This document shows, in pieces, positions 1 through 25,594 of a stretch of DNA of 64,000 nt. Source of the DNA: Ischnura elegans. Its lineage: Eukaryota > Arthropoda > Insecta > Odonata > Coenagrionidae. The notes under the pieces are model-generated. The model did no database searches and was not told the origin of the DNA. It saw nothing but the letters and a program-made list of their open reading frames with translations. The DNA is taken from positions 1,860,001 to 1,924,000 of the forward strand of contig NC_060258.1 of assembly GCF_921293095.1 (NCBI RefSeq), given 5' to 3'. Position 1 is the first letter of the stretch. The number at the start of each line of letters is the position of its first letter. The translations under genes and the position numbers were made by a program.

Positions 1-859
1 AGTAACTCTTAAGTGCTAATTGCTATTTTTCAACGGGAAAAGCAAGAGGAAATCGAACGGAAAACTGCGCACTCATGTCTTCGAGAGATTTGACTAAAAA
101 ACCTAACGGGGATTTCTACTATTCGTTTGACAGGTCAAAAAATATTCTCTTAGTGCGATGGCAGGATAACTCTGCCATTGCTGTTGCTTAAAATTATGGG
201 AATATGGTACCCATAGTAAGGACGAAAAGATATTCCCGGAGATTCCCGTAGAAAATCGAAATATCATCAACGATTAAAATCAGGGAATGGGAGGGGTAGA
301 TTTTCTCGATAATTATGTTGTATGTTACCGTATCCACTTTATGAGCAAAAAATGGAGGTGGCCTCTATTCCAAAAAGGGGTTGACAGTGCAGTGGTGAAG
401 CCGTGGTGATTTTACGCCTAAGTCACGGGCAAAGCAATTCCTCAGTTAGAATTTCGGTCCGAGATCGTAAAACTTTACTGAGACTAGAAATCGTTTCCAA
501 TACTATGGCTGATGACATTTGGCATAAAAATCGGTGTCCACATGCGGAATACCTTAGGAAAAATAGCATGTATGTGGGGTTAATTCCGAGCAGCATATTA
601 TTGAACAATACATCAGAAAAAACGATGAAAAATAAAATAGGCAGCCTAAGTTTTCAAAATTTTTTTTCCTTTTATTTTCCGGAGTTTTCCCAGCGTTGCG
701 TAAACGCAACATTATGCAAATCATATATTATGCTGAATATAATAATTTTGTCCGAAAATTGATCTTAGGCCATAATTAACCGTAAAATACGAAATAACCG
801 GAGTTAAAAGCCCTATGTGCAGTCTGGGGAATAATGGATTAAGAGTGAAAGCTTCTTAA
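1..859. other. AT-rich sequence with no recognised gene
   Basis: I see no conserved motif, repeat or credible exon here. The open frame at 403-762 ends in a run of hydrophobic and low-complexity residues, resembles no family I know, and is overlapped by another frame on the opposite strand. The satellite begins around 850-860 with the first recognisable GTGGGTTA/GGAAGCTTCT-type monomer words. Confidence 0.6.
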
Positions 860-3701
860 TGAGATAATAAGGAGACTGGTGGTATATATGGAACGAATAA
901 ATAAAAGTGAAGGAAGGATGAAAAGTGCTATAGATGGCAATGTATTAATAGGAAGTATGAAGTGCTAGACATGGTGGGTTATGATTGGTAGCTTCTAAAT
1001 GAGATAAGGAGACTGGAGGTACGTATGAAGCGACGGAATATAGGTGAAGGAATGATGGAAAAAATGCAATAGATAGCAAAATGTTAATAGGAAGTATAAA
1101 GTGCTGGACATGGTGGGTAAAAGTGGAAGCTTCTAAATGAGATAAGTAGGAGACTGGGAGCATGTAAGAAGCGAGTGAATAAAGTTGATGGAATGATGAA
1201 AAAAGTGCTGTAGAGGGCAATGTGTTAATAGGAAGTATGAAGTGCTATACATGGTGGGTTAAGAATGGCAGCTTCTAAATGAGATAAGAAGGAGACTGGA
1301 GGTATGTATGGATCGAATGTATAAAGGTGAATGAATGGTGAAAAGAGTGCTATGAGGGCAATATGTAAGTAGGAAGTATGAAGTGCTGGATATGGTGGGT
1401 TAAGAGTGGAAGCTTCTAAATGAGATAAGATAGAGACTGGAGTTATTTATGGAGCGAGTGAATGAAAGGTGAAGGAATGATGAAAAAAGTGCTATAAATC
1501 GCAATATGTTCATAGGAAGTATGAAGTGCTGGATATGGTGGGTGAAAAGTGGAAGCTTCTAAATGAGATAAGAACATGAATAGAGGTATATATGAAGCGA
1601 GTAAATAAAGGTGAAGGAATTATGAAAAAAGTGCTATAGATGGCAATATGATAAGAGGAACTATGGAGTGCTGGATATGGTGGGTTAAAAGTGGAAGCAT
1701 CTAAATGAGATACGAAGAAGACTGGTGGTATATATGGAGGGAGTAAAAAAAGGTTAAGGTATGATGAAAAAAGTGCTATAAATCGCAATATGTTAATAGG
1801 GAGTATGAAGTGCTGGATATGGTGGGTTAAAAGTGGAAGCATGCAAATGAGATAAGAAGGAGACTAGAGGTATGTATGAAGCGACGGATAATAGGTGAAA
1901 GAATGATGGAAAAAATGCTATAGATGGCAATGTGTTATAAGGAAGTATGAAGTGCTGGATATGGTGGGTTAAGAGCGGTCTCTCCTAAATGAGCTAAGAA
2001 GAAGACTGGAGGTATGTATGGATCGAATAATAAAAGGTGAATAAAGGGTGAAAAATGTGCAATGATGGCAACATGTTAATAGGAAGTATGAAGTGCTGGA
2101 TATGGTGGGTTAAAAGTGGAAACTCCTAATTGAGATACAAAGGAGATTGTAGGTATGTATGGAGCGAGTGAAAAAAGGTGAAGGAATGACGAAAAAAGTG
2201 CTATAGATGGAAATATATTAATAGGAAGTATGAAGTGGTGGATATGGTGTGTTAGGGGTGGCAGCGTCTACATGAAATAAGAAGTTGACTTAATGAATGG
2301 ATGGAGCGAGTGCTTAAAGGAGAAGGGATGATGAAAACAGTGCTAAGATTGCAATATGATAAGATTAGGTAAGAAGTGTAGGATGTGGTAAGCAGTGGCA
2401 GCTTCTAAATTAGATAAGAAGAAGATGTATGGTATGGATGGAGCGAGTACTTAAAGAAGACGAAATGATGAAAACAGTGCTAAAGATGGCATTAGGTTGT
2501 AATGAGGTATGTAGTGCAGGACATGGTGGGTTAGAAGTGGCGTCCTCTAAATGAGATAAGAAGGAGACCTAAGGTATGGATGGGGCGAGTATTAAAGGTG
2601 AAGGAATGATGAAAACAGTGCTAAAGATGGCAATATGATGAGATAGGAAACGAAGTGCAGGACATGGTGGGTTAGGGTTGTAGCTTCTAAATGAAATAAG
2701 GAGCAGACTTAAGGTATGGATAGAGCGAGTGCTTAAAGGATAAGGAACGATGAAAACAGTGCTAATGATGGCAATATGATGAGATAGGGTATTAAGTGCA
2801 GGACATGGTGGGTTAGAAGTGGCAGATTTTAAATGAAATAAGAAGGAGTCCTAAGGTATGGATGGAGGGAGTGCTTAAAGGAGAAGGAATGATGAAACAG
2901 TGCTATAGACGACAATATTTTACGAGGAAGTATGAAGTGCTGGACATGGTGGGTTTGGAGTGGCAGTTTTTAAATGAGATTTCAAGAAGACTTAAGGTAT
3001 GGATGGAGCGTGTGCTTAAAGGAAAAGAGATGATGAAAACAGTGCCAAAGATGGCAATATGATAAGATGAGGTATGAAGTGCAGGAATTGGTGGGTAATG
3101 AGTAGCAGCTTCTAAATTAAATTAGAAGGAGACCGAAGGTATGGTTGAAGCGTGTGCTCAAAGTTGAAGGGATGATGAAAACAGTGCTATAGATGGCAAT
3201 GTGATAAGATGAGGTACGAAGTGCAGGACATGGTGGATTTGGAATATAGCCTTCTAAATAAGAAAGGATGAAGACAGAAGGTGTCGATGGAGCCAGAGCC
3301 TAAAGAATAAGGAATGATGAAATAAGTGTTAAAGATTGCAATATGTGGTGATAAGGTTTGAAGTACAGGACATGGTGGGTTAGGAATGGCAGCTTCTAAA
3401 TGGGATAAGGATGGGACTTAAGGTATGAATGGTGCGAGTGCTTAAAGTATAAGGAATGATGAAAACAATGTTAAATATGGCAATATGATATAATGAGGTA
3501 AGGAGTGCAGGAATTGGTGGGTTAGGAGTGGCAGCGTGTAAATGAAATAAGAATTAGACTTAATGTTTGGGTTGAGCGAGTGCGTAAAGAAGAAGTGATG
3601 ATGAAACTGCTATAGGCGGCAATATGCTACGAGGAAGTATTGTGTGCTGGACATGGTAGGTTAGGAGTGGCAGATTCTAAATTAGATAAGAAGGAGACTT
3701 A
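860..3701 (+). repeat. ~142-bp satellite array, block 1
   Basis: About twenty tandem copies of a ~142-bp monomer. Recurring words are GGTATGGATGGAGCGAGTG, GATGATGAAAACAGTGCTA, GAGGAAGTATGAAGTGC, GACATGGTGGGTTAGGAGTGG and CTTCTAAATGAGATAAGAAG. Monomers in 860-2250 are a distinct subtype (GGATATGGTGGGTTAAAAGTGGAAGC); those from ~2290 on are another (AGGACATGGTGGG). The array stops at GACTTA where TE1 is inserted and resumes with the same monomer at 6941. Short frames running through it are by-products of the monomer. Confidence 0.95.
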
Positions 3702-6940: not shown

Positions 6941-7519
6941 TAAGGTATGGATGGAGCGAGTGTGTGATGAAGAAGGGATGTTTTAATCAGTGCTGTAGAC
7001 AGCAATATGTTACGAGGAAGTATGAAGTGCTGGACAATGTGGGTTACGAGTGGCAGCTTCTAAATCAGATAAGAAGGATACTGAAGGTATGGATTAAGCA
7101 TGTCCTTAAAGGAGAAAACATGAAGAAAACAGTGCTTAAGATGGCAATCTGATAAGATGAGGTATGACGTTTAGGATATTGTGGGTTAGGAGTGGCAGCT
7201 TCTACATTAGATAAGGAGGAGACTGAAGATTTGGATGGAAGGAGTGCTTAAAGGGGAACAGATGATGAAATCAATGCTATAGATGGCAGTATGTGACGAG
7301 GAAGTATGAAGTGCTGGTCATGGTGGGTTAGGAGTTACAGCGTTTAATTGAGAATAAAAGATCACTAAAGGTTTGGATGGATCGAGTGCTTAGAGGAGAA
7401 GGGATTATGAAAACAGAGCTAAAGATGGCGATTTGTTTCGAGGAAGTATGAAGTGCTGGACATTTTGGGTTAGGATTAGTAGCGTCTGAATGAGATACAA
7501 AGATGACTGAATGTATGGT
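6941..7519 (+). repeat. ~142-bp satellite array, block 2
   Basis: About four monomers continue the array across the TE1 insertion. They end at GACTGAATGTATGGT, where the GTGCATCCAGGGGG terminus of element E begins. The last monomers (for example GAAAACAGAGCTAAAGATGG and GATTTGTTTCGAGG) have near-identical inverted counterparts at 35700-35960. Confidence 0.93.
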
Positions 7520-7522
7520 GTG

Positions 7523-7606
7523 CATCCAGGGGGAGTGATCACTTCCTGATCAGTGAGCGGCCTGTGACGTCAGCGCTCACTGAGCGATCACATTCCCCCC
7601 TGGATG
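7523..7606. repeat. 84-bp imperfect palindrome at the left end of E
   Basis: It begins CATCCAGGGGG and ends CCCCCCTGGATG, with TGATCAGTGAGCG facing CGCTCACTGAGCGATCA across a short GTGACGTCA-containing centre. An inverted copy is at 35606-35688 and a shorter related one at 21914-21976. It would form a hairpin at the element end. Confidence 0.85.
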
Positions 7607-7754
7607 GTGAATGCTCAGTGATCGCTTCGGTGGGGAACTTGAAATGCAAAACATTCAATATGGCGCCCAGCGCTTGTGTTTCTTTCGTGTAGCGGCTGCG
7701 AAATATCCTTTAATTCCTGTGATAAGTTCATACCTTGTGACTATCTCTAATATA

Positions 7755-7782
7755 CAGGGTCATTTTAAAAGAATATCACAAC
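7755..7782 (+). repeat. TE2 left terminal inverted repeat
   Basis: CAGGGTCATTTTAAAAGAAT followed by ATCACA. It pairs with 20352-20377, whose reverse complement begins CAGGGTGATTTAAAAAGAAT and continues ATCACA. Confidence 0.92.
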
Positions 7783-8009
7783 CCTAAAAATGTATAACTC
7801 TGCATAAAAGAAAAGGAGAACTAAGCATTACCTGTCTTCGCATTAAGGAAGCTCTGAAATTCAAAAGCTCTAAAATGCTAAATCACTAAAATTTAATTTA
7901 GTTGCTCATTTGTTCACTTGAGGCGCTGTTGACGTTAGCCTACCACAATGAACTTCATCACTGGCCACAAACAAGCTCTGATATCATCCCCCGTGATTTT
8001 TCCTTAAGG

Positions 8010-8360
8010 TATGTTTAGGTACCTACAAAGAAAAATTTTTGCTTTGAAACTGCTTTGGAACCCTTGTGAAACTGATTTGGAACACCGAAATCTGCCTTGG
8101 AATTGCTGTGAAACTCATTTTCACTCATTTGTACCAAAAACTGGATATGTGAAGACATTTGTAACTCATTTGTAATCCCCTTTCGAACTGCTTTGTACAG
8201 AGTGTGCTCGTGTGGAACTCCTTTGTAACGATTCGACTGGATTTCCAGACGTCATCATTTGTGTTGTAACTGCTGTGTACGGAGAAGTTTCATGTGTAAC
8301 TGCTTTTCCACACATTTAACGAATGTGTAACTCCTTTTGAACGAGTCCGTGGGATTTGTA
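8010..8360. repeat. TE2 left subterminal short-repeat array
   Basis: Repeated degenerate words of the type GTAACTGCTTTGGAAC: AACTGCTTTGGAAC, AAACTGATTTGGAAC, GTAACTCATTTGTAA, GAACTGCTTTGTAC, GTGTAACTGCTTTTCC. The reverse complement of the same word fills 19490-20050. Probable transposase-binding sites by analogy with CACTA elements (inference). Confidence 0.75.
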
Positions 8361-9333
8361 GACGTCATCATTGACTTTGCGTAAAACATGCCATGGCGCG
8401 AAGTTCAGTCTGATTCTCTCGCTCGAGAAAACGAAAATTCGCTAATACATATGATATAGAAATGAATTAATGGTTTAATAAATTGCCTTAAATCTGTTTA
8501 TAGAAATGAAACTCCGAAATGGATATTCTAATGAGCTTTAAAAATAATTATTACATTTTCCGTTTCGCTACACCCGCATTTTTGGGGTCGTTTCGAAATG
8601 CGGCAAGTTTATCTTCTCTACGTACCTGGAATCTCTGGTACGTACAATAAGATATTTAATTACAAATTCAGGGCAAAATTCGTTTGTACTAGCGTGTTGT
8701 TGACGTAATAAAAGGGCTCCCTATAATCTGAAAATAATATCTTTGAGAATTCTGGATCCGCGTTTAGAATATCTCTTTCGTCGTCGAGTAGAAATCAATT
8801 AAGTGAATCCATTACGATAATGTCATTGGCGCAAAATTTAACTTACGGCCGCGTTTTGCAACATATTTACTTGGGGTGCCGACTTGCAAAAAATATTGGG
8901 GGGGCCCAAACCGGGGATCTTGCCCCAGGAAATTTTATAAGTAGCGAGTTTTTAGTTTTTTAAGCATTTTAGAAGTCATACGATCAATATTAGAACCCTT
9001 ATAACTCGAATCTCGATAACTGGACACTCCAGGGAAAATCGACAAACCTGACACATTTTTTCGCCTCACCCTTTAACCAATTTTTGAGGGCGCTCGAGCC
9101 CCCTCAAGAGTCGGTGCCACTGACATTTAAATATAATGATGTAAGTCATTACTGCTAGGTCAGAGGTGAATCTGTGGACTTGGGTAGGATATGATCGTGG
9201 TTTCTGGAAGGAGAAACTGGGACTTGGTGGTGAGGTGAATGATTTATGGCATAAATTCATTGAAAAGTATTTATTGAACAGCTTGGCATGTGTTAAAATT
9301 TCAGAATCAACGCAATCTAATAGAGAACCTTTG
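8361..9333. other. TE2 left non-coding part
   Basis: AT-rich sequence with no exon that I can support. It includes a G-tract remnant near 8871-8935 (GGGGTGCCGACTTGC...GGGGGGGCCC...CCCCAGGAAATTTTA) related in style to 18896-18950, suggesting an old small insertion. Confidence 0.5.
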
Positions 9334-10087
9334 GTCAATTCAAGGCAAAGAATCAGTTTTAAAATCAGACACCTGATTGCAGTACAATAAATATTTTGAT
9401 TCTTGTGACTACCAACATACATACATAAAATTAACTGATTAAGCAACTTTTTAAAAAATACAGAATAAATCATGCTGATTCACACCATTTCAGTTTTATT
9501 TACCCTCTTAGCGAGAAAAGACCTTCCCTCAATATTCACATGGGCACACACATCACTAATATTGATGCAAGTAACCTCATGTGAGATCCTCACTTCATTA
9601 ATGAAAGGGTTAGCTGGTATCATACCATTGTTCACAACGATGCACTTCTTCCCTACCGCACAAAAAATGATCTCACATACACACATACAGGTACAATCAC
9701 ATAACTTGCATTTTAGTCAATTCAATGCAAAGAATCAGACATCTGACGCAGTACAATAAATATTTTGATTCTTGTGACTACCAACATACATACATAAAAT
9801 TAACTGATTAAGCAACTTTTTAAAAAATACAGAATAAATCATGCTGGCTTACTCCATTTCAGTTTTATTTACCCTCTTAGCGAGAAAAGACCTTCCCTCA
9901 ATATTCACATGGGCACACACATCACTAATTTCACTAATATTGATGCAAGTAACCTCATGTGAGATCCTCACTTCATTAATGAAAGGGTTAGCTGGTATCA
10001 TCCCATTGTTCACAACGATGCACTTCTTCCCTACCGCACAAAAATTGCTCTCACAAACACACATACAGGTACAATCACATAACTTGT
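9334..10087. repeat. ~380-bp tandem duplication of the transposase 3' end
   Basis: Copy 1 (about 9334-9709) and copy 2 (about 9716-10087) are nearly identical through GTACAATAAATATTTTGATT, the TTAGCGAGAAAAGACC region and up to CACATAACTTG. Copy 2 holds the real C-terminus of the transposase; copy 1 lies downstream of the stop codon and is a vestige. Confidence 0.93.
9480..9709 (-). pseudogene. Duplicated C-terminal fragment of the TE2 transposase
   Basis: The minus-strand frame reads MCVCEIIFCAVGKKCIVVNN and ends FLAKRVNKTEMV, duplicating the terminal ~68 residues of the transposase, with a three-residue (SEI) deletion relative to it. It lies beyond the stop of the intact gene, so it would not be translated as part of it. 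Confidence 0.85.
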
Positions 10088-13000
10088 ACTTTACCATTGC
10101 TTCAACCACAAATTTTGAGGAGTCATTACAAATAATGAAGGACGAGTCACAATTTCTATGGCTAATGCCACTATGACACTGAACAACAAAATTATCCTTT
10201 AGCAATCGGACAAAGATCCACACCTTAGGAACTTCGGAGCAAATTACGGTCAATAATGACTCAATAGCCTTCAAAAGGTACTGACTTATTTCCTTCACTG
10301 GCCTTAGTTTCCCTATTACAAAAGTGGTGCCATCGATCTCCTCCACTTTATTGGACACCGTGCTTAAGCTCTCAACAAATTTCAATGCCAAAGAATTTGG
10401 TGCCAATGACGATGATATTACTGGCAAGCTTTGCAATGCTTCAAATGACTCAGCAATTTTTTGCTCGACATATCGTGTACCAGACACCATCTTTTTCATT
10501 TTTCCCAGCAGAGCCTCTAATGGAAAGCAAGATGTCTCATAGGCTGGCCCTAACCAACGCACATTCTCTGCTAAATGTAGTAGCGAATGTACATTGGCTG
10601 ACATAAACCTCTTGCCATACAACAATTCAAAATCATAAACAAACCTCACCAGTAGCTCACTGGCCTTATCGATGTCAGATGAAGAAATAGAGTCTTGGTT
10701 AAGAATGTACATGGCATGAACGAGCAAGAAATAATGACAAAAATAGGTTCTCTCCATCACATCAACCATGAGCACAGGAATTGAATAATAGTAAAACCAA
10801 TTTTTAAACTCAGATGTCTTGAAAAAAGCAGAACAATTCACAATAGATCGTGGTCTACGACTAATGAAATGGGGCGGTTTTATTTTTTTCAGTCTTTCCT
10901 CAACAAGTGATAATTTGTCCACGAGTGAAAATTCATGACTGCGGAAAGCTGATTTAAACCATAACTCCAGCAAACGTTTTCCCCCAATGCCAGCAAACAC
11001 TGAATGCATGGTATCTATCCCACAACCATTTATAAAATCTGGAACCAATTTAGAAAACATGTTTTCTCCTTTGAACCCAAAAACAGTGGCTTTGGCATTC
11101 AGCAGTGCAGAAGAACAATGCTCCAAGGACTTTTCATGGGTCCTCAACTCCACATTTTCTGAAGAGGGGTAGCAAAATACCCTCCGTCTCCCACCCAAAG
11201 AAACACTTAAACCTTTATGCAGGCATTTGGAGCAGCCATAATAGCCATTGAAATTTTTCATATTTAGCAATAAGGCCTTTGCAGGCAAATCAGCTACAGC
11301 ACTTAATAAAATGGCAATAACTTTAATTCTTTCGCCTGATGCCAATTCAACAAAAATTCCGTTTTTAAGGGATTGTAATGGCTTAAACATAGGTAGCAAA
11401 AATGCATTGAAATTCGGTTTTGTAGTACCGTACCATAAGCCGCCAAAGATAACATTCTGAGGCAAATACCTCTTGGCATATGGTAATTCATTAATTACAA
11501 AAAGAATTGGCCAGACAGACATTTTCGAAGAATTAAATACCTGCATACCATCGGTATATAGCATGAGGGTAATGTCATACACCCCCTTAAGGTACAATTT
11601 AAATTTCTGGTACAGAAGACCATCCATCACATTTTCCATGCAATCCTCTCTACTCTTTTCCTTGTGGTATCTTTCAGTCATGGCATAGCAGAAATCAGGC
11701 TGAGAAAACATTTTTTTAATTTGTGGTTCCAGTGGAATTATCAAAAATGATGATATACCCTTTCCAGTGCAGTGAGTGCAATGATTAATACCTTCAAGTA
11801 CTGACCCACAGCCATTGCAACACTGCATTTTCTTGAATCTGCTCTCGGGTGAGCTGAAAGTTTTCCTGATGACGTAAACTGACTTAACCATTTTATTCCC
11901 AGAAGGTAAATGGTCATCTATTAATTTCAACAAGCTTGCCATGCAGGAGTAAGACAGTTTGAAGTGTAAAAAGAAGGAAAATAGCATGATGGCACTCTCT
12001 TTAACTGTCAGGTTTGCTCCATCATATATTTTTTCCTCGTAAATTCCATTACCGGAAAATTCGTCTTCGGGCTCGCTATCACCTAAATCATCACTACTGT
12101 ACCAATAATCACTTGAGTCATCCTCCACATTGCCTTCATCACAGGACATAGCATCATCACCTGCAATAATGAATTCATGCGTTACTATAGTAATATATTA
12201 CCACATGTGAAACTTTAACCCTACCAGAGGCATCAAAATGAGAAAAAATTATAGGAAGTTCAAAAATTTAAATTAATTTATATTAACTTTTCATATTTTA
12301 TACATACTTTCCGTTTCACGCTGGTCCGCAAGCTGATTATGGTCATCTTCAAATTCAGCATCATCTGTAATGTAAAACAAATTTTAAACCTTACTTTCAT
12401 CGGAGATAACAAAACTGAGTTACATTCACCACAAACTCATAAAATTTACATTGTGATAACAATTAATCAAGCTGAATATAAAGCATAATTGTAAGAGGTA
12501 CCTCAGAGAGTACTAATAAGGGCTCAACTTATAAGTAACATTTAATGACAGAACAGATATTGCTATTTTCCACGAATTTCTTTTTTTTAAAGTACCATAT
12601 AGGAAAATTGCCATCTCTCTTTTTCATGGAATCAGGATATTTATTTATTTAAGGAGTTTCAAACATAGCATTTCTGCCAAGTTACGCAGTAACAAACATA
12701 AAATTTTAACATAAAAAATCTGAACAAAGAGCACAGGCATAAGATAATAAAGAACAAAATAGAAGGCACGAGGAAAGGGAGGTGGAGAGGGAGGTTTCTT
12801 TATTAGCCGAGGAAAGGGAGGTGGAGAGGGAGGTTTCTTTATTAGCCGAGGAATGGGACATGGTAAGTTTGATAAATATGAGTTTAAGGGCAGAAAAAAC
12901 GGGTCAGTATTGTCTGGTAATGAATTGAGCAAGGAGCAAAGGCGGTGTTGGAGTGAGCGCTTAAGGAGGGATAGTCTAGGGATAGGTGTATGGAGTAAGG

Positions 13001-14173
13001 AATGTGTATGAGTGGGTCGGCAAGGCACTCTGAAATTAATGGATGAAAGCAAATCAGGACAATCAATGTGTGAATTTAGAATATTGTGTATAAGTTTTAA
13101 GTCTGTTTTAATCATTTGTTGGGAGAGATGAGTCATTGATAGAGAAGATAAGAGTGAGCTGGTGGACATGTCACGTAAGTGGGGAACTCTGCGTCTTACG
13201 GTTCTGGCCAGGAAGCTGGTTATACAGTCAAGAGAGGTGAGGTTAGAGGGGGCTGCGATGGACCGTATGGGAGAGCAATATCCGGTGACTGGAAGGATAA
13301 ATGCCGAGAAGTATGATTTAAGAGAGTTTGAATTTGCTTAAACAGCTTACAGTCGTCCGCATAAAAGAGAGTATGTGTCTGGGATGGAGGCAAAAGTGTG
13401 GCTAGGTCATCAATGAATAGGCTAAATAAATATGGCCCCGGGACACAACCTTGAGGAACACCTGATGTTACCGGGGACCAGTAGGACGAGGTGCCAGAAA
13501 ATATAACTCTTTGGAATCTATTAGTAAGAAAGGATTTGATGAGATTGAGAAAGGTTCCATGCACGTTGAATCGTTGACTAAGCTTGTAAAAGAGGAGGGT
13601 ATGGTCGAGTGAATCGAAGGCTCTGGAGAAATCAAGGAATATGGTGTCGAGTTGAGAATTTTTTGCTATTGAGTTGAGGGCATGGTGATGGAATACAGAT
13701 AGGTTAGTAAGAAAGGAACGATTAGGAAGGAAACCTCGCTGATTTTTCGAGAGGTTAGGGGATGTAAAGTAATGTTATCTGTTGAGTATAATACTCTATA
13801 TCATTCCATCATATCTCGCCTGCCTCAGTTAATTTAACTATACGGTCAACACTTAACATTGGTTAATTAGCCCACCTTAAGTCTGCTCTAGAATCCCAAA
13901 TAAATACACTGATACTTTAATACTCTAGATACCAGCATCAAATAATTATTAGAAGGCATTTACTAGCCTGACCCCCTCACCTTTGTCGGAGCTGAGTCCG
14001 AAGTAGTCATTTTCCAAACTCTCACTCAGCATAAACTGTGAACGGAGTTCATTTCGCTCCTCATCCTGGTAAGTCTCTTCAAGTGGATCGCCAATGGTTT
14101 CCTCCGCTTCCATAATTCTTCTCTTTCGCCAGATGGTAGTGCGTGATTGACCGCTATACGATTTACTCGCCAT
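9849..14173 (-). CDS. Tnp2-like (Transposase_21/DUF4218-type) CACTA transposase, 3 exons
   Basis: This is the transposase expected to cut and join TE2 ends. Three exons splice in phase: 14173-13981 (donor AAAG|GTGAGG), 12364-12308 (donor GAAA|GTATGT) and 12160-9849. The total is 2562 nt, 853 residues plus stop, with no internal stop. The start is the ATG opening MASKSYSGQSRTTIWRKRR, a basic N-terminus. An acidic region (~65-120) follows, then a possible zinc ribbon CNGCGSVLEGINHCTHC (~196-213). The core contains YTDGMQVFNSSKMSVWPI (~285-302), fitting the D-G-F-P...WP signature of Transposase_21. AVADLPAKALLLNM (~372) and YGCSKCLHKG (~391) are the next landmarks, then GIDTMHSVFAG. The segment NVHSLLHLAENVRWLGPAYE is DUF4218-like. 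Intron 1 holds a LINE fragment. Activity is untested, but the frame is fully open. Confidence 0.9.
12308..12364 (-). CDS. Exon 2 of the TE2 transposase
   Basis: A 57-bp acidic exon (DDAEFEDDHNQLADQRE) between TTACATTACAG and GAAA|GTATGT. Both of its junctions keep the reading frame with exons 1 and 3. It is too short for ORF scans and is listed separately so that it is not missed. Confidence 0.82.
12645..13785 (-). mobile_element. 5'-truncated LINE fragment in transposase intron 1
   Basis: A minus-strand reverse-transcriptase fragment. From 13785 down it reads RGFLPNRSFLTNLS, then the motif-A region IFLDFSRAFDSLDHTLL, then SGVPQGCVPGPYLFSLFIDDL and the catalytic FYADD box (~13340-13360). The frame breaks after that. 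A second segment (13169-12645 frame: SLSMTHLSQQ...LDYPSLSAHS in the alternate frame) is the C-terminal tail region. The 3' end is an ATTTATTTATTTAAGG-type tail at ~12640-12655. It resembles Jockey/CR1-type LINE reverse transcriptases; the clade is not certain. It is not functional. Confidence 0.85.
12766..12852. repeat. 39-bp minisatellite, about two copies
   Basis: The unit CGAGGAAAGGGAGGTGGAGA plus GGGAGGTTTCTTTATTAGC occurs twice in tandem with a third partial start. In the LINE-tail frame it encodes the duplicated peptide RLIKKPPSPPPFP. Confidence 0.9.
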
Positions 14174-14913
14174 GTTAACAACGGAATTTGGATTTTGAAA
14201 CTCGGGACATTCGTATGCAGATAAATCGAAAATCGAAGGCCGGCAGAAATAAAGCTTGGGGGTATCTTGGAATTAGATGCCAATGAAATTAATTATACAT
14301 CCGAGATACTAAAAGACGATTTCTATGCTAATTATTTTTTTACCTCTCCTGATTTGATTTCTGAATATACTGAAAATTGAGATATGTATAGACATCAAAC
14401 GATAGAATTCAACACACAACGGCACTGTGCTTGCTTTGCTCAGCTAGTCGGGTAACAACTTAGCAAGTAACCAAAAATTTTTAAATGACTACATTCACGA
14501 AAAACAGCTATATTATAAATACATTATTTTATTTCATTAAACTTTTTTTGGAAAAATTTTATTAGAAATTTAAAATATCATCATTTCACGCCGAACTTGA
14601 ATCATGTGGTACTTTAATAGTCAATATAAAGCTTTACCTTTAATACATAAATCTGAGAATCGTGCAAAAGGATAACATTTATCATCCCTAAACAAATTTA
14701 AATATTATTTTGTACTTAAAAGCATTAAATTTCAATGTAAAAGATGTCATAAAATTTCGCATTGGTTTATCAAGAGCGCAACTTGAGTTATATTGGACTT
14801 CTTTCCGGCATATCCGGTTCGTGTTGTACGTTTACTCACATCTCACATTTACTGCACGTGGTGATCAGTGGTGAACAGAATTGTAGAGTCACACGTCTAG
14901 AATATCACGCATC
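14174..14913. promoter_or_regulatory. Divergent promoter spacer between transposase and BEN gene
   Basis: A 740-bp AT-rich spacer separating the two start codons, which face away from each other. It must contain both promoters or a shared bidirectional one. A CACATTTACTGCACGTGGTG E-box-like stretch lies ~60 bp before the BEN start. No unambiguous TATA box or initiator was assigned. Confidence 0.5.
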
Positions 14914-17900
14914 ATGTCTAGAATAGTTGAGTATGAAGAAGACTCGATGGACAGCGTGCGGTCTTATACCGCTAGAAGTAAGCGGGAGAAGAGGGTGAAG
15001 GCTGTGCTGTACTTTACGTCCGATGAATCTACCGCCATAGTGGATAATCTGGCAGATTTTCTGCCTGAAGTCGACAGTGTGCTGAGAGGGCAAACACACC
15101 TAATTAAGTGGAACCCAAAAGCTGCGGAGCCCGACCAGGAGGTTCGCATTGTCAAAAAAGGAGGTAAGTATGATAACCAATTCGAATCGACGTTTTCCAT
15201 TGTAATTTGGCCATTCAATGGCAATTCCCATTTGCTATGCGAATATGTTGGTTCCTAAGATGGGCTGATGAGGAACGTACTGAATACTGTATTTCTATAT
15301 TCAAGTCATGAAAATAGTGTCATCGCATGCGATGATGTCTATGATTGGATTGCGTGATAGGAAAGTTTGATGCATTAGTCCAAGAGGAGCTCTTTACTCC
15401 ATGCAAGTAAATGAGTATGGACTGCAGAGTCTTCATGCATTGTGTGACCAGGGCTCTATCCCTGTTGTAGGATGTGGTATTGTGCGTGGGTTTCACCGTT
15501 GCTCTCATGTCATGGTTAATTTCGACATAGTGTTACACTCGTTATTTTAATGAAATGAGTGTAACCCATTGTTATTGTGGCTTACAATAGTGTTGGTACG
15601 GAGAAGCTACATATGACTTTATACTTGAATTTTATGGTATCTATAGTTAAAGCGACTAATTATCTTCCTTTTATATTCTAGGCACTAGGATAGAATGTGA
15701 GGAGGTGCGTGAGGCGTTTGAGGTGCTCGCTAGCTCTGTGGGGGGTATATGAGGCCATAAAGCTTTGTGACGAAACGCCCACCATGGTACGCAAAAGGAA
15801 AACCTGTCCCTCTGTCCGGCCACCACAAGCAGGCCAAATGCCGGTAGAGAGTTTATTTAAGAGGCTACCTGATTCAAATGTGGCCCCAGAGGTGGTGAGA
15901 AGAGTGGAGCCTCTTGCTGCTGCCACTAAGCCTCATGGGGCTTCTGTATTTGATATTGCAGCTCTTCAAAGAGACATGGTGCATGCAGGTGTGTTATTTT
16001 TAGTTGGGAGTCTGACTCACCATTTATGCTTCATTAAGAATTTAAATAGAAGTAGTTTAGTGTGAGCAGTATTCACTGTTTGCTAACCCAGAAATTGTCT
16101 TTCCAGTGACAAATGCTGAAAAGGCTGCAGTGTTGCTCTGCCATGCGGAGCATTTACAGCCAAGAGACATGGATGCTATGGTATGGTCCCTAGGTGGTAT
16201 TACTCAACCTGTGCTTTTGTATTTAGAAATCATTTTAGTTATGTCAAGTACGTGAAGTAGTACTTAAGTTGCTACAAATTTCATTCCTGCTTTTTATATT
16301 TCCTCTGCTTTCATATAGCATCTTGATGCTATGATGATATATTGTTATTGGTAAATTGTTCAGGGAAAACTTCAGTCTTGCAAGTTGCCATGTGCTTTCT
16401 GTTACCATAGAGATAGGAAACCATTTCATTCATCAACATTCTTAATTTTTTATGGTATTATGAATATAAATTTTTCATTATTGTAAGGGTAGAACATGCA
16501 AGCTGTCCATTGTACAATGCCTATTAATGTAATCTCATTCTGCGTAACATCTAAAAGTATGGAGCTATGACTACTTCCTAATTTTGCATCTGAATCTTCA
16601 TTTCGGCAGGTACCTGTGTACCATGGCTTCAATATAATGATTAAAAAAATCGATAAAATGGAGTGCCTCTCTAGGGCAAAAAGCAACCCAGGCAAGTTGC
16701 AGCGGCTCCTGCTGGAGAAGATAAAGGGGAGGGAGTATATAAAAACACATTGCGCCAGAGGGCAAAGAGCAGCAACAGGTGGACTTCCAGCAGCTGATGC
16801 AGATTTATTAATTGCAGTGCAGTGTGAGTCAATGAAATTAATACTTTTAATTGGATGCAGTATACTTAATAGTTCTATATTTTGGCTGTTTAGTTAAGAT
16901 GGATACCTATGTGAAAAGATATCACGATCAATTTAGTGGCACAAGTTGTTTGACCTAAACTACCTATTCTAGCTAAATTACCCATCATGTCGTACAAGAA
17001 CTGCGGTGAGTTTGCAAACTGCCATCTTGCCTAAACTGGCCTCCTTGCTATTTCTGATTATTCACACGTGCAGCATTTCTCTGAAAATAGTGCCCCCATT
17101 TTTTTCCTAAAATGCTTATGGTAAGAGTAAAGGGGAGACTATATTCAAACCCATTTTTTCCTGGGACTGGGACTTATGAATTTTGAGATTCTGATTTGTG
17201 TTCCCACGAATTGGTATTCCTGGTTCAATGTTAAATAAGAGGTTCATTGTTGCTGGGCCATTTCATCTCAAATCAGGCAGATAGTGCAAAATCATGTCAG
17301 GTGACCATCGCCGATTTCTCTGAAATTTATATATGTGAAAGCAGTATCCTTATGATGAATAGTGATGACTTTATTTCAGCTCAGAACTGGTCCGTTATAA
17401 AGTTACCATCCTTTGAACATTGCATAGTTACGCCTCAGAGTAAAAAATGAAGAATCACATAAATGCTGATTACTAAAGAACCATGGCCCGTAGAGCAGTG
17501 GTTATTGTTTCATTTTGAAGAGAATTCATTTATGCACATTTTGGCATAACTTGCAAGCCAGTTGAAGCATTAATAAAGACATAGGACTTGTTTAAACAAT
17601 GAATTCTCTTCAAAATGAAACAATAACCACTGCTTTGCGAGCCATGGTTCCTTAGTAATCAGCATTTATGTGATTTTTCATTTTTTACTCTAAGGCGTGA
17701 CTCTGCAGTGTTCAGAGGATGGTGACTTTATAACGGTTCAGTTCTGAGCTGAAATAAAGTCATCACTATTCATCGTAAGGATACTGCTTTCACATATAAA
17801 AAATTTCAGAGAAATCGGTGATGGTCACCTGACACCCCTCTGCCTGATTTGAGATGAAATCTCCCTGCTGCTTTTTATAGGGTTGTAGCTATGTCCATTG

Positions 17901-18359
17901 TCACATGCTTTTGAAAAGAATCTAATATTTGTTGTTGCTAATATATATTTTCTTAATGTATTACAGTGTACACAGAATCACGATTCAAGGGTAAAGAGGT
18001 GCCGTCTATCAAAAAGACATTCAACCAAATGTCAGGAAATATAAGGAGGCATGACCGGTACTGTGAAGGGAAGTACCGTTATGCCAGAAAGCCGAAGAAA
18101 AATAAGTATGTTGTTTTGCAGTGTGTAAAGAACCTTCTAGGATGGTGTTCAACATTATTGTCAAATTAGAGTTGGGTAATAATTCTTTGTAATTTGTTCC
18201 AGGAATGTTGGAGATGAAAATTTGAGGCCATTACACGAGCATGGAGAAATGAGCACTCCGCTTATTAGTGACGTGTCATACGGAAGGCCTTCCTCAACTA
18301 TGGTTGGAGGCCATGAGCATCAAAATGTGTCCACTGGGGCAGTATATCACTGCATGTAA
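14914..18359 (+). pseudogene. BEN-domain gene of TE2, six exons, one frameshift
   Basis: A probable DNA-binding accessory protein of the transposon. Exons are 14914-15163, 15682-15988, 16107-16180, 16610-16823, 17967-18105 and 18203-18359; every GT-AG junction keeps phase. Exon 1 starts MSRIVEYEEDSMDSVRS and contains VKAVLYFTSDESTAIVDN and LIKWNPKAAEPDQEVRI. In exon 2 the frame is lost at a run of six Gs (15740-15745), leading to an immediate stop; a run of five would keep it open, so this is a one-base indel or a sequencing error. Exon 4 carries the BEN-like core LQRLLLEKIKGREYIKTHCA and RGQRAATGGLPAADADLLIA, and exon 5 continues YTESRFKGKEVPSIKKTF. BEN domains bind DNA and mediate protein contacts in animal chromatin proteins; the role here is inferred. 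The gene is transcribed away from the transposase. Confidence 0.8.
17251..17872. mobile_element. Fold-back MITE in BEN-gene intron 4
   Basis: Two ~275-bp arms (17251-17529 and 17599-17872) are near-perfect inverted copies around a ~70-bp centre; both contain TTTCATCTCAAATCAGGCAG, the GTGAAAGCAGTATCCTTA word and AATGAAACAATAACCACTGC in opposite orientations. It falls between exons 4 and 5. I found no clear target duplication. A transcript through it would form a long hairpin. Confidence 0.88.
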
Positions 18360-18472
18360 TTATTTTTGAAGGTTTCTGTGTGTGTTTATTATTGTTCTTT
18401 ACTTGAATGCATTGAGAGGGTTTTTAAAATAGTATATGTGTGTTGTAATTGGTACTTTTTCCCTGTTTGGGC

Positions 18473-18478
18473 AATAAA
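18473..18478 (+). terminator. Polyadenylation signal AATAAA of the BEN gene
   Basis: AATAAA ~114 bp after the stop codon of the BEN gene, in the context TTTGGGCAATAAAAATTTAG. Confidence 0.6.
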
Positions 18479-18479
18479 A

Positions 18480-19480
18480 ATTTAGTCAAAAGTAATTTTC
18501 TTATTGTCCTTTTCTCACTAAACTTTATTGTAGCACCGCTTAATTTTTGTAGTATTAAATGACAAGTGTGCTTTCCAATTTGATGCTTATTTTTAAAAGT
18601 TGCAATTATACGATTTCTAGATCCATATTTTTAAATGTTCATTGGTCAATCACGAAATATTCTTACCTTATTCTCAACGCTGTCTCAAGTATATTTTTGG
18701 CAAGATGGTTAAATGACGTATTACATTTAGTTTCATTGGGGAATGTATGAAGTTATATCTGGGTGTTCTTTACAAGTGTTTATGATACTCAACTTGATGC
18801 ATCTTAGAATCTTTCCTTTTCTCACGATAACTCTTGAAGTACAACGGCAGTATACCACAGGTACAGACAGGTGGCGTTACTAGGAATATTCTTTTGGAGA
18901 GGACTGGGGGGGGGCTACCCCCACAGGCAACAAGGAGTCCAGGAAATTTTTTGAACAATAACATGTCTAGAAATGCTTTTTGCATAATTTTGGAACTTTA
19001 AATTTAACTTAAAGCAGATACAGTTATTGGGTGTCTAATTCAGGCAATAGTTTTTAAAATTTCTGAGGCTTTTGGGGTGGGGGAGCTATCCTCCCCCCCC
19101 ATAGTTATGCCAATGCAATGGAATTTTTAGTTTGTAATTTTGACCAAGAAAGCTATCAATTAAGGACCCAAGCTGCATTTTCCTAAGATAAACTGATCCA
19201 ATCATTTTCGCCCTTAAGCAGATTTCTTTCTAATATTATCATTGGAAGAGATTGAGTGGTGAATCTTACTCTGGTTTGTGTGGACAAATAGGATCTCAAA
19301 TTTCTTTGTTAATACCATTTGTTTAAAAAAAGGTATTATAGGAAGTAGGAATATTTGTTAATAGCTTTGTGTGAATTGTTTGTAATGTATACTATCAGGT
19401 TATGTCTACATCTGGTACAATAATATAGTTAATTTAGAAAGAAATGAGTTCCATAGATGTAGAAATTATTTTCAGCATTG
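18480..19480. other. TE2 right non-coding part with a G-tract insertion remnant
   Basis: No supported exon. The segment 18871-19110 begins GGTGGCGTTACTAGGAATAT and contains GGGGGGGGCTACCCCC, then GGGGTGGGGGAGCTATCC and CCATAGTTATGCC. This signature (GTGGCG plus G-tracts) recurs elsewhere in the window and looks like an old dispersed repeat. Confidence 0.5.
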
Positions 19481-19489
19481 ATTCCAAGG

Positions 19490-20050
19490 CAACTCCGTAA
19501 GGCATCCCAACCTGTTACGAATCAGTTTCATTGCCAATTCCAAAATAGTTACAACGCAGTGTGGATGGTGTACAAATCAGTTCCACGGGTGGGTGAGTGG
19601 TACAAATCAGTTCCATTGCCAATTCTAAAGCAGTTACAAAGCTGTTTGGATGGCGTACAAATCAGTTCCATAGCCAATTCTAAAGCATTTACAAAGCAGT
19701 CTGGATGGTGTACAAATCAGTTCCACGGGTGGGTGAGTGGTACAAATCAGTTCCATTGCCAATTATAAGGCAGTTACAAAGCTGTTTGGATGGCGTACAA
19801 ATCAATTCCAATGCTAATTCCAAATGAGTTTCAAAGGTAGAAGGGATGAGGAAATGTATTCCAAAGCAGTTTCCATGGCAAATCCAAAGCAGTTTCCATG
19901 GCAAATCCAAAGGAGTTGATGACATAGCAGGAAGGTATGATGTCATGAACTGCTGTGTACCTTGTTTCAATTCCACAGCAGTTCAACAGCACATCCAAAT
20001 CAATGGTACAAAGCAAATAGACGGCAGTTCCAAATGCCTTACACAGCAGA
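19490..20050. repeat. TE2 right subterminal array with ~140-bp tandem period
   Basis: Repeated words GTACAAATCAGTTCCA, CCAATTCTAAAGCAGTTACA and AAAGCAGTTTCCATGGCAAA. These are the reverse complement of the left-end GTAACTGCTTTGGAAC word. A block beginning TGGATGGTGTACAAATCAGT and including CCACGGGTGGGTGAGTGG recurs 140 bp apart (19562 and 19702). Confidence 0.85.
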
Positions 20051-20351
20051 AATTTTTCCCTGAGTATGTTCAGGATATGGTGTTTCCATCACCTCTACCA
20101 TTAAATATTGATGATCTGATGCAAGAAATATCACCAGACATTCAAATTTTTACACCCAATATGCTATTGAGAGTGTGAAAAAAGTTCAAGTACCCATCGA
20201 GTTGATATCGTTTAACTGTCAGGAGGAGGTCATATTGAACATTAGTGGACTTGTTCTTAAGTGGAAAAAAATATTTTTAAATGTTCTTGATAATGATGTA
20301 TAACACACGTTTCTTTTGTGTTTTTTTTTATTAAATACATATTTGTGAAGA

Positions 20352-20377
20352 TGTGATATTCTTTTTAAATCACCCTG
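20352..20377 (-). repeat. TE2 right terminal inverted repeat
   Basis: Reads TGTGATATTCTTTTTAAATC then ACCCTG; followed by TATATCAC of the host element E. Confidence 0.92.
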
Positions 20378-21300
20378 TATATCACTCAAAATTTACGGGC
20401 TTTAAGGATTTACTGATAACAGTTCTAACGATTCCCGTGATATTTAATGGGAATGCTTTTTGTATCGATCGTCCAAACATTTCGTTGGGAATCTGGTGGC
20501 TGACATTGAAGTCTTGAAAAAAGAAGTCTTTGAACTAAAATGGACGTATTTTTCATGTTTAGAAAGAAATACTTTCTCATTTGCTAATGCCGTGAAATCC
20601 GCTTCGTCTTATAGTTTCTTGAATGAGATATAATAATTGATCAAGGACGTCACTAGACGTTGTTATTGTTATCACAATAAACCGTTTCTGACTAATTGTG
20701 ATATTGGGTGACTAATGATGAAGTTAAATATCTCAGCATTCCGGGAAGTAGTGTTGTCGGATGTTTTGAAGAAGTGTTGGTAAACCGGTCAAATTAAAAA
20801 AATGCTGGTGTTATCGTGCTAACCAAATCTGACATTACTTTTGAAGTGAGCTATATAGTTGTCGCATATGTGCCACATGAGCTGTGCATTACTGTATATT
20901 ATAACTATCTTGCATTGTATTACTCAGAGAATGAGTTTTTGTGGGTGACTTTTTACCCTAAAATATTTTCATCTTCCACTGAATACTTTTTTACGTTGAA
21001 TCTAATTTACAATTTTATGAGTATTTTTGTTTCTGTCATGCATTTGTGACGTACCTCACAGTACTTGTGACACTGTATACTCTTCTCATAATTTTTCTAT
21101 GATCTCCTGGCAAATAAAAATATTATTATGAATGATATAATGAAATACAATGAAGGTTGTATAGGCAGTTTCACATGGACCACGTCATTCCACAGGTTAG
21201 CAATGAAAACATGTTGAAATTGCGAGCTTGGAATTTAGAGCAGGGAATATTTTGCTGTATTATATCCACGCACTCTCGCGTGTGTTATAGAAATCCACCG
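20378..21300. repeat. Part of element E present again, inverted, at 34537-35460
   Basis: From TATATCACTC through the ATGTTTTGAAGAAGTG and GTCGCATATGTGCCACATGA regions to AGAAATCCACCG, this segment is matched inversely with few differences by 34537-35460. Open frames inside it (for example 20816-21049) are hydrophobic and not matched by any family I know. Confidence 0.92.
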
Positions 21301-21979: not shown

Positions 21980-24010
21980 CCATGGATGGAGCGAGTGCTT
22001 AAAAGAGAAGGGATGATGAAAACAGTGGTATAGATGGCAATATGTTGTGATGAGGTATGAAGAGCTGGACATGGTGGGTTACGAGTGACGGCTTCTATAT
22101 GAGATAAGAAGGAGACCAGAGGTATGGATGGAGCGAGTGAATGAAGGAGAAAGAATGATGAAAACAGTGATGTACTTTGCAAATTGTGTAGAAGAAATAT
22201 GAAGTACTGGGCATGCTGGGTTAGGAGTGGATGCGTCTATATAAGATAAGAAGAAGACTGTAGGTATGGATGGAGCTAGCGCTTAAATGAGAACGGATGA
22301 TTAAAACAGTCCTATAGATGCCAATATGTTACTAGGTAGTATGAAGTACAGGACATGGTGGGTTATGAGTGGCGGCTTCTATATGAGATAAGAAGGAAAC
22401 TGACGCTATGGATACAGCGAGTGATTAAAGGAGAAGGGATGATGAAAACAGTGTTATAGATGACAATATGTTACGAGGAAGTATGAAGTGCTGGACATGG
22501 GTTAAGAGTGGCAGGTTCTATATGAGATAAGAAGGAGACTGAAGGTATGGATGGAGCGAGTGCTTAAAAGAGAAGGAATGATGAAAACAGTGCTATAGAT
22601 TTCAATACGTAACGAGGAAGTATGAAGTGCTGGACATGGTGAGTTACGAGTGGCAGATTCTAAATGAGATACGAAGGAGATTGGAGGTTTGGATGCAGCA
22701 AGTGCTAGGATGATGGAACCAGTGCTATAGATTTGAATATGTTACGAGGAAGTATAAAGTGCAGGGCATGGTGGGTTAGGAGTCGCAACTTCTATATGAG
22801 TTAAGAAGGAGACAGAAGGTATGGATAGAGCGTTTACTTAAAGGAGAGGGGATGATGAAAACAGTGCTATAGATGTCAATATGTTAATAGAAAGTATGAA
22901 GTGCAAGACATGGGGGGTTAGGTGTGGCAGCTTCTGTATGAGATAAAAAGGAGATTGGAGGTATGGATGGAGCGAGTGTTTAAAGGAGAAAGGATGATGA
23001 AAACAGTGCTATAGATTTCAATATGTTACGAGGAAGTATGAAGTGCTGCACATGGTGGGTTAGGAGTGGCAGCTTCTAAATGAGATAAGAAGGAGGCAGA
23101 AGGTATGGATGGAGCGAGTGCTTAAAAGAGAAGGGATGATGGAACCAGTGCTATAGATTTGAATATGTTACGAGGAAGTATAAAGTGCTGGACATGGTGG
23201 GTTAAGAGTGGCAGGTTCTATATGAGATAAGAAGGAGACTGAAGGTATGGATGGAGCGAGTGCTTAAAAGAGAAGGAATGATGAAAACAGTGCTATAGAT
23301 TTCAATACGTAACGAGGAAGTATGAAGTGCTGGACATGGTGAGTTACGAGTGGCAGATTCTAAATGAGATGCGAAGGAGATTGGAGGTTTGGATGCAGCA
23401 AGTGCTAAGAGGATGAAAACAGTGCTATAAATGGCAAAATTTTACGAGGAAGTAATAAGTGCAGGGCATGGTGGGTTAGGAGTCGCAACTTCTATATGAG
23501 TTAAGAAGGAGACAGAAGGTATGGATAGAGCGTTTACTTAAAGGAGAGGGGATGATGAAAACAGTGCTATAGATGTCAATATGTTAATAGAAAGTATGGA
23601 GTGCAAGACATGGGGGGTTAGGAGTGGCAGCTTCTGTATGAGATAAAAAGGAGATTGGAGGTATGGATGGAGCGAGTGTTTAAAGGAGAAAGGATGATGA
23701 AAACAGTGCTATAGATTTCAATATGTTACGAGGAAGTATGAAGTGCTGCACATGGTGGGTTAGGAGTGGCAGCTTCTAAATGAGATAAGAAGGAGGCAGA
23801 AGGTATGGATGGAGCGAGTGCTTAAAAGAGAAGGGATGATGGAACCAGTGCTATAGATTTGAATATGTTACGAGGAAGTATAAAGTGCTGGACATGGTGG
23901 GTTAAGTGTGGCAGGTTCTATATGAGATAAAAAGGAGACTGAAGGTATCGATGGAGCGAGTATTTAGCGGGGAGGAGATATTGAGAACAGTGTTATAGAG
24001 GGAAAAATGT
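21980..24010 (+). repeat. ~142-bp satellite, block 3, with a 700-bp higher-order repeat
   Basis: Same monomer and orientation as blocks 1 and 2, resuming at CATGGATGGAGCGAGTGC. From ~22510 the array is organised in a five-monomer higher-order unit: the segment beginning GGCAGGTTCTATATGAGATA recurs at ~22511, ~23211 and ~23911 (period 700 bp) with the same private variants, such as TTGGAGGTTTGGATGCAGCA and GAACCAGTGCTATAGATTTG. The array decays after ~23990. Confidence 0.95.
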
Positions 24011-25594
24011 TATTAGGACTGTTCACGTTCCTTGCAGCTCATCTTTGAACGCGTTTTAACTCAGTTTTTAAGCCTATTTCACGAGGGTCATAAAAGCTAA
24101 CGCTTGCATCTTAATTTTTCGAAAACTCTCTCATACAGATTCTCTAATATAGGCAATTTAATCATAGCATTTGCCATGTTGTTTAAAATTGCGATACGGA
24201 ATTCTAATCTCCAACAACTACGACCACTCGAATTTCATTCCGACACGGAGTCACTAGAATCCGAACAACATCTCCTCTCCAAGGTTTCAAGCGCACCAAA
24301 TCACATTCCATATCGAACTTTTTCGGGCGAGTACTTGGTTATGTATCGGAATAAATCCTCATTGGTTCAAGGACAACCCTTTCTATCACGAGGAAATTAT
24401 GGTAAATATACAGCAAAACATACATTTTGAATATCATTCACTCCAAGGCGAATGATTTCTTCCTCTGAGTAATTTTCGCAAAGGAAATGGAAGTTAAAAA
24501 AATTACCGTGTCGGGAAAATATATGAACCCATCATATTTGTTGTTATTTCATTTTAACCGTTAGAATTGTGTGATTTAGGAGAGGTGTATGTTGCTATCG
24601 AGGAATTAAACATTCAAATATATGTAAGGCCGTTCTGTGATAAAATTTGTCAATAAAGTTGGTTCTTTAGACTGATGCCTACAATGTCTCCTTAAGGAAC
24701 ACGAAAATCCAAATATATTGAGACTTTTAGGCGATGATGGTCGAAAACGTAAAGCTTAAATTTAAATATGCGAACCGGAGGGCTAAAATATAGTGCGAAC
24801 AATTTAGAATTTCAAAAATTAATACTTTTGGGCGACGTTAACCTAATATGTACACCATATGGCTATGATGTATACGTATCTACTGATGATGATTTTAGGA
24901 AAGATAAGATATCGCAAAAGGGGAGCTATCCGCTTGTACGTCTTCGATTGTTCTCCATTTCTTCTCCTGACATGGGATTTAACCCTTTGAGTCGAAATCG
25001 AGTAAAAAGAGCGATGAGAAATTGGTAGCTGCAGTCAGAGAACTTCCTGAATGACTTGAATGGCTTCTTATCGCCCGGAAACTTAATCGAATCGTCGAGT
25101 AGTTTCATGTTTGTGTCAAAGAAACATCCTATCAGAGGCTCAGAAAATACGAAAAAAAACTAAAAAAACTAAAATAAAATAAATATGTGAAATGAGTCGT
25201 CTATGTGAGTTCCATATGAACTCGAAATAATGGCGTTTATGCCTTTTAAGGTCTTCCTTAAAAGCATGGCATTCTACATCCACATAATAACATCTAGGAT
25301 GTTTGGCAAGGGGTGATATATCACCAGGATGCAGCATACAAGAAGCATTGCGCATAGTGCAAAAAATACGTGCATATTCCTGCAGAGAGAAAACTTGCGA
25401 ATGGCCTGGAATTCTTATTACAAATCTATTAAAGTTTACAAAAAACCATGCATGCAATAAAAACGTGGCTGCAAACCACCGGAAAATGGCCATTTTAGCG
25501 AAGTTAACAAAATCGTTATTTTTCATCGCAGAATCACGCTTCTAAGACGTAACTGATTTCTTGATTAGCAGGAGTGCGATGAAAACAATGATTT
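24011..25594. other. AT-rich sequence, no recognised gene
   Basis: Several open frames (24104-24430, 24768-25028, 25140-25526 on the opposite strand) lack conserved motifs. Segment 24900-25140 is a diverged direct copy of 29040-29270. Confidence 0.5.
24900..25140 (+). repeat. Diverged direct repeat (partner 29040-29270)
   Basis: Shared order of words: AGATATCG, TTCTCCATTT, AGAGCGAT-GA-AAATTG, AACTTCCT-AA-GACTT, CTTCTTA-CG-CC, TAATCGAA, and the following GTTTC-TGTTTG. Similarity is partial but collinear. Confidence 0.6.

Follow-up and report, generated by a model that had tools for sequence, protein, structure and literature searches.

The 64,000-nucleotide stretch of Ischnura elegans contig NC_060258.1 analysed here (positions 1,860,001 to 1,924,000, hereafter the window) contains a transposase gene lying head to head with a gene for a BEN-like protein, which raises the question of whether the second gene belongs to the transposon or was merely carried along by it. 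The original prediction, drawn from the letters of the window, had placed both genes in a single 12.6-kb CACTA-type element spanning positions 7755 to 20377. This span consists of two nested elements, an element of the TRC type having inserted into a 582-bp miniature inverted-repeat transposable element (MITE). We consider it rather probable that, in this TRC-type element, a transposase of the DDE type is accompanied by a divergent BEN gene that represents the conserved second gene of the clade and that helps at the element ends.

The limits of the elements were established by comparison with other copies in the genome. Self-comparison of the window confirmed the inverted repeat at 7755 and 20377 (47 nt, 81% complementary) as well as the empty site at 35458/35459, where the flanking DNA recurs inverted and its left and right parts adjoin with a 2-bp overlap (TA) inside a TATATA run. 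However, a genome search with positions 7700-8300 broke at 8026, with 7751-8026 and 8030-8300 hitting different places. In L002 (C8), L003 (C9) and L004 (C7), the three loci fetched among the four other places listed for the left MITE arm, positions 7750-8025 are fused directly to 20065-20380. The junction in these three copies reads GGTACCTATGTTCAGG, and in the window its TA is doubled around 12,039 bp. Since the arms are found joined without the interior, the terminal inverted repeat (TIR) and the empty site of the original prediction, although real, belong to the MITE; the CAGGGT repeats at 7755 and 20377 were rejected as ends of the gene-bearing element on the same ground. The left half of the MITE, with the TIR CAGGGTCATTTTAAAAGAATATCAC, occupies 7755..8025, and its right half, which opens with the second TA of the target duplication flanking the inner element, occupies 20065..20377. 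Its length is 582 bp in the window, 574 bp in L002 and 580 bp in L004, with flanks TA/TG in L002 and TA/TA in L004. Because the solo MITE copies serve as its empty sites, the gene-bearing element can be delimited as 8026..20064 (12,039 bp, flanks TA/TA), in agreement with the end regions that it shares with other copies. This nesting shows why element ends need to be checked against other copies in the genome. The sequences flanking the MITE (7055-7754 and 20378-21077) recur inverted at 34763-36156 (- strand) with 95-96% identity, and arrays of a repeat of about 142 bp lie beside the inverted flank copies, at about 850-3700, 6942-7518, 21982-24018 and 35700-38071.

The ends of the inner element occur without the MITE arms in 14 fetched loci and in L010 (C6), which retains 979 bp of the left end only. 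The left end region (8030 up to 8670) is common to all 14 loci, and in 10 of them the right terminus is visible together with both flanks, the shared terminus being CTCAGGGAAAAATTT. Nine of these ten copies have matching 2-bp flanks (chance 1.4e-10 at 1/16 each), the exception being L014 (ac/tt). Four loci could not be used for this test: L017 has two right ends and no left pattern, L020 is cut at the edge, and L018 and L023 have no right end in view. The duplications seen are TA, TT, AT, TC, AA and CA, which excludes a strict TA target. In the window, the left TIR (CAAAGAAAAATTTTTG, 8026..8041, + strand) is decayed relative to the other copies, and the right TIR (AAATTTTTCCCTGAG, 20050..20064, - strand) is intact. 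The inverted arrays of subterminal words that had been predicted are present at both ends. The left array (8046..8338) holds 8 matches to GTAACTGCTTTG with at most 2 mismatches, all on the + strand of this stretch, and the right array (19541..19896) holds 11 matches with the same tolerance, all on the - strand; elsewhere in the window, 9 matches lie on the + strand and 4 on the - strand. Copies of the element lacking the BEN gene had been named as evidence that would speak against a partnership. Shorter copies without it do exist, and at the 16 loci concerned (L009-L024) neither the BEN gene nor the transposase was found by tblastn and the BEN profile.

The transposase gene lies on the - strand and comprises three exons (13981..14173, 12308..12364 and 9849..12160, the last including the stop), which splice to an open reading frame of 853 residues, as predicted. 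The third exon encodes DUF1258 (48.1 bits), Transposase_21 (37.7 bits for a cut-off of 28.6) and DUF4218 (30.4 bits), all above the Pfam cut-offs, and the expectation of the latter two domains was thus borne out. Residues D287, D374, C393/C396, H608/H612 and E632 are invariant in all 12 aligned proteins, namely the window protein and 11 of the 17 hits (P0010 and P0013-P0017 were left out). The window protein therefore has a DDE triad together with the C(2)C and H(3-4)H motifs, so named in PMC12730594; the acidic residues would be the catalytic ones, according to our own assignment. Among 8000 candidates scored, the closest proteins are P0002 (46% identity over 92%) and P0003 (53% over 41%), both from I. 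elegans, followed mostly by unnamed metagenome proteins. The terminal (3') part of the transposase coding sequence is present again in a tandem duplication (9330-9715 / 9712-10093, 91% identical). Intron 1 contains open frames (12645-13774, - strand) with what we take to be reverse-transcriptase-like motifs, probably a fragment of a long interspersed nuclear element.

The BEN gene runs from 14914 to 18359 on the + strand, divergently from the transposase, the two ATGs being 741 bp apart. Its six exons are located at 14914..15163 (exon 1, with homologous exons at other places), 15682..15988 (exon 2), 16107..16180 (exon 3, with junctions as in P0001), 16610..16823 (exon 4, the core of the BEN-like domain), 17967..18105 (exon 5) and 18203..18359 (exon 6, with the stop and a start common with P0001). 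Exons 3 to 6 are joined identically in P0001, a protein of I. elegans. The multi-exon structure and the BEN-like core of the original prediction are thereby retained, but the gene is not open, since the frame of exon 2 is broken at about 15741-15744. Two conserved blocks of this exon are separated by 4 nt in the window versus 3 nt at L029, L040 and L041, the only further places in which the pair of blocks was recognized; L029 and L041 also contain their own stops. The break might be circumvented by use of a weak alternative splice acceptor. Given its decayed left end and broken BEN frame, the window copy is probably inactive. Intron 4 holds a large palindrome (17252-17868), the 208-nt arms of which are 92% complementary and which probably represents an inserted fold-back element or MITE.

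The nature of the encoded domain became apparent at the level of profiles. The window sequence alone gave no match to Pfam BEN (PF10523), and in three of the seven genome copies this family is listed below the cut-off, with a best E-value of 0.011. Against the PDB, the window sequence alone retrieved NACC1 as best hit (E 0.18), and a profile of two sequences placed NACC1 third (E 0.63), behind two thiolases. A profile of seven copies (window, L028, L042, L048, L049, L051 and L054) retrieved NACC1 first (2.1e-5 and 2.8e-5) and BEND6 third (0.014), followed by a kinesin (0.031). The BEN assignment thus failed the Pfam part of the check that had been proposed for it and found its support in the seven-copy profile, which suggests that the divergent gene encodes a remote member of the BEN domain family. 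A search with residues 1-190 of the protein gave no relative with an E-value of 1 or less in 1209 candidates, and a 275-aa C-terminal piece matched a single protein, P0001, among 1662 candidates.

To what extent the two genes occur together was assessed over the I. elegans genome (1.7227 Gb, 110 contigs). With the BEN query, all 129 candidates were scored, and 85 matches were obtained at 67 places after merging 18 exon rows of the same places; the gene is therefore not the unique captured host gene that would have spoken against the original prediction. With the transposase query, 58 of 580 candidates were scored, giving 64 matches at no fewer than 50 places once 14 fragment rows were merged. 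A line was drawn at 39% identity after a gap between 34% and 39% had been seen. Of the 29 transposase places at or above it, the window being one, 21 have a BEN match no more than 10 kb away, and 19 of these show the divergent arrangement of the window; when the window is excluded, the figures are 20 of 28 and 18. Random placement on the same contigs gave a mean of 0.19 and a maximum of 4 in 5000 trials, the size of C11 being a lower bound. This pairing, found also in the second family described below, led us to reject the BEN gene as a lone captured gene and supports, within this genome, the earlier view of it as a stable component of the transposon rather than a chance passenger. It extends to families whose transposases are 45-50% identical to that of the window and which share the exon layout and the homology of exon 1. 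In the sister group, by which we mean the identity class of 30-34% and not a branch of a tree, none of the 21 transposase places has a BEN match within 10 kb or 30 kb (one query). Upstream of one transposase of this distant group, at L058 (C6:12731001-12735800), neither the BEN profile nor Pfam gave a match. A divergent open frame of unknown type is present there, the end of which resembles BEN exon 1 by eye only; a different or far-diverged second gene is possible. Pfam BEN itself was found at four places of the genome (26 of 26 candidates scored), all away from the elements, which disfavours the idea that an ordinary host BEN gene was captured recently.

A second family provided copies in which both genes are enclosed by recognizable ends. 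L056 (C9) and L057 (C1) share two aligned blocks (98.3% and 97.6% identical), the outer limits of which are the element ends, L056 being about 270 bp longer between the blocks. The ends, CCCAGCAAAGAAAAACCGATTTCCA, show 96% agreement across 25 nt; with CCC..GGG taken as the limits, L056 measures 7891 bp and L057 7638 bp, and the flanking dinucleotides are TC/TC and TA/TA, respectively. Each copy contains a transposase (46% identical to that of the window) and a divergent BEN gene (44-45% in exon 4). In this family, the two genes have thus moved as a unit. Strand-asymmetric end words occur here as well, for instance CTGATTTCCA (11 versus 1, the most frequent words having been picked without a test). 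The C17 copy (L055, the P0003 locus) has the same divergent layout, and its element ends were not found. A second, different BEN exon 4 was observed at L057:8186-8395, just beyond the right end of the C1 element.

The recurrence of the pair at many places of the genome suggests a dedicated helper protein of the transposase. TNPA binds end-proximal repeats of plant Spm, and the BEN protein is probably a comparable DNA-binding partner: it would bind the strand-asymmetric arrays of words close to the two termini and would assist the transposase in locating or pairing the ends, in the manner of TNPA, without kinship to TNPA being implied, while the transposase would cut at the element ends. Several observations weigh against this proposal. 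Single BEN sequences stay below the Pfam cut-off (16.4 of 23.2 bits for the best other copy), and the end words were selected by their frequency, with no test of significance. No BEN match lies within 10 kb of eight of the 29 close transposase places, a listed close transposase lies within this distance of only 23 of the 67 BEN places (the transposase list being a lower bound), and two pairs (C17 and C13) are convergent; these two resemble each other, a further BEN match being located 26-27 kb away in both cases. Moreover, the ratio of nonsynonymous to synonymous substitutions (dN/dS) of 0.10-0.35, measured between the BEN exons of the window and L027, L028, L030 and L031 (exons 4-5) or L029 and L040 (exon 1), derives mostly from copies for which no transposase is listed closer than 10 kb (L027, L028, L030, L031 and L040). 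The selection may hence partly reflect use outside whole elements, of which P0001 may be a case.

The alternative that best withstands these data, although we hold it to be rather unlikely, is that the BEN protein is owned by the element and acts in regulation, by silencing or activating the element's promoter or by fending off host chromatin control, without being needed for cutting and joining. The BEN domain is otherwise known from chromatin factors and viruses, and the 741 bp between the divergent ATGs form a natural shared promoter. In addition, TNPA itself reactivates and represses the Spm promoter, according to PMC1636069. The position of the arrays at both termini, including those of the shorter copies without genes, fits a role at the ends, and regulation is still compatible with it.

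A functionless passenger, captured and then spread with one successful family, appears improbable. The close transposase places without BEN and the BEN copies without a listed transposase are what such a passenger would leave, and three of the latter are near-identical, one being an annotated gene (P0001). However, the pairing spans families that have diverged to 45-50% identity in the transposase while keeping exon layout and exon 1 homology, the dN/dS values are low, and the absence of Pfam BEN from all element places disfavours a recent host origin. The three near-identical copies, L028, L030 and L031 (C14:15422238, C16:6799825 and C16:2932683), deserve mention in their own right: the one annotated as P0001 (at C16:6799825 by sequence) has BEN exons 3-6 behind a different N-terminus, and host reuse or a truncated copy are both possible. 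Finally, a single 12.6-kb element bounded by the CAGGGT repeats, as suggested by the inverted repeat together with its empty site (35458/35459), can be dismissed for practical purposes, given the arms joined without interior in three loci and the interior's ends without arms in the 14 fetched loci and L010.

We thus retain the BEN gene as the probable conserved second gene of these elements, with a presumed role at their ends. More tentatively, we propose that a clade of animal CACTA relatives uses a two-part machine, in which a DDE transposase depends on an obligatory BEN protein for reading the end arrays, this protein being the animal equivalent of TNPA with an unrelated domain, and that such elements are perhaps one source of the BEN domains of host chromatin factors and viruses. 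The shared domain is the basis of this last suggestion, according to which those domains could partly come from such elements. The BEN domain would in this way be tied to a transposon lineage, and a recognizable domain in a fixed second gene makes the role of the partner testable in an animal element.

With regard to classification, the element is a TRC-type animal relative of CACTA/EnSpm (CMC group) and not CACTA proper. The strict CACTA label had to be abandoned: instead of CACTA-type ends (or CA..TG), the two families have CTC..GAG and CCC..GGG, and the target duplication is 2 bp instead of the 3 bp of CACTA/EnSpm. A 2-bp duplication, as in the TRC type, was found in the window family, at the MITE empty sites and in the second family (TC and TA). 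The initial CCC is present in the TIR of the second family (CCCAGC) and absent from that of the window family (CTCAGGG).

Among known systems, NACC1 and BEND6 are linked to the divergent gene by the profile match to their solved BEN domains, but this match is remote, no single copy exceeds the Pfam cut-off, and the BEN domain described here is transposon-borne. PIF/Harbinger elements encode a transposase and a separate Myb-like DNA-binding partner; the two-protein plan is the same, whereas the transposase superfamily and the DNA-binding domain differ. Judged by titles and the beginnings of abstracts, none of the papers retrieved by full-text search describes a pairing of a transposon with BEN (Repbase, subscription papers and other eukaryote genomes were outside this scope), and the one paper naming both CACTA and BEN does so in unrelated places (PMC5704228). 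Plant CACTA/EnSpm elements with ORF2 or TNPA share with our element a related transposase, a second protein and end-proximal repeats, and differ by their CACTA ends and 3-bp duplications, as described in PMC4158355 and PMC1636069; the BEN protein is likened to TNPA by role and not by kinship. In maize Spm, TNPA and TNPD work together (PMC1636069). The closest likeness is with the TRC elements of Schistosoma mansoni, Aedes aegypti and Tribolium castaneum, for which PMC1636069 reports Transposase_21, TIRs starting with CCC and 2-bp duplications. As in SmTRC1 and its relatives, we found Transposase_21, 2-bp duplications, subterminal or tandem repeats, shorter deletion copies and an extra protein, and the CCC ends recur in the second family (L056 and L057), whereas the window family ends in CTCAGGG. 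According to the same paper, the extra proteins of SmTRC1 arise by alternative splicing and have no detected relatives, and its authors expected one of them to act in a TNPA-like manner; in the I. elegans elements, the extra protein is encoded by a separate, divergent BEN gene.

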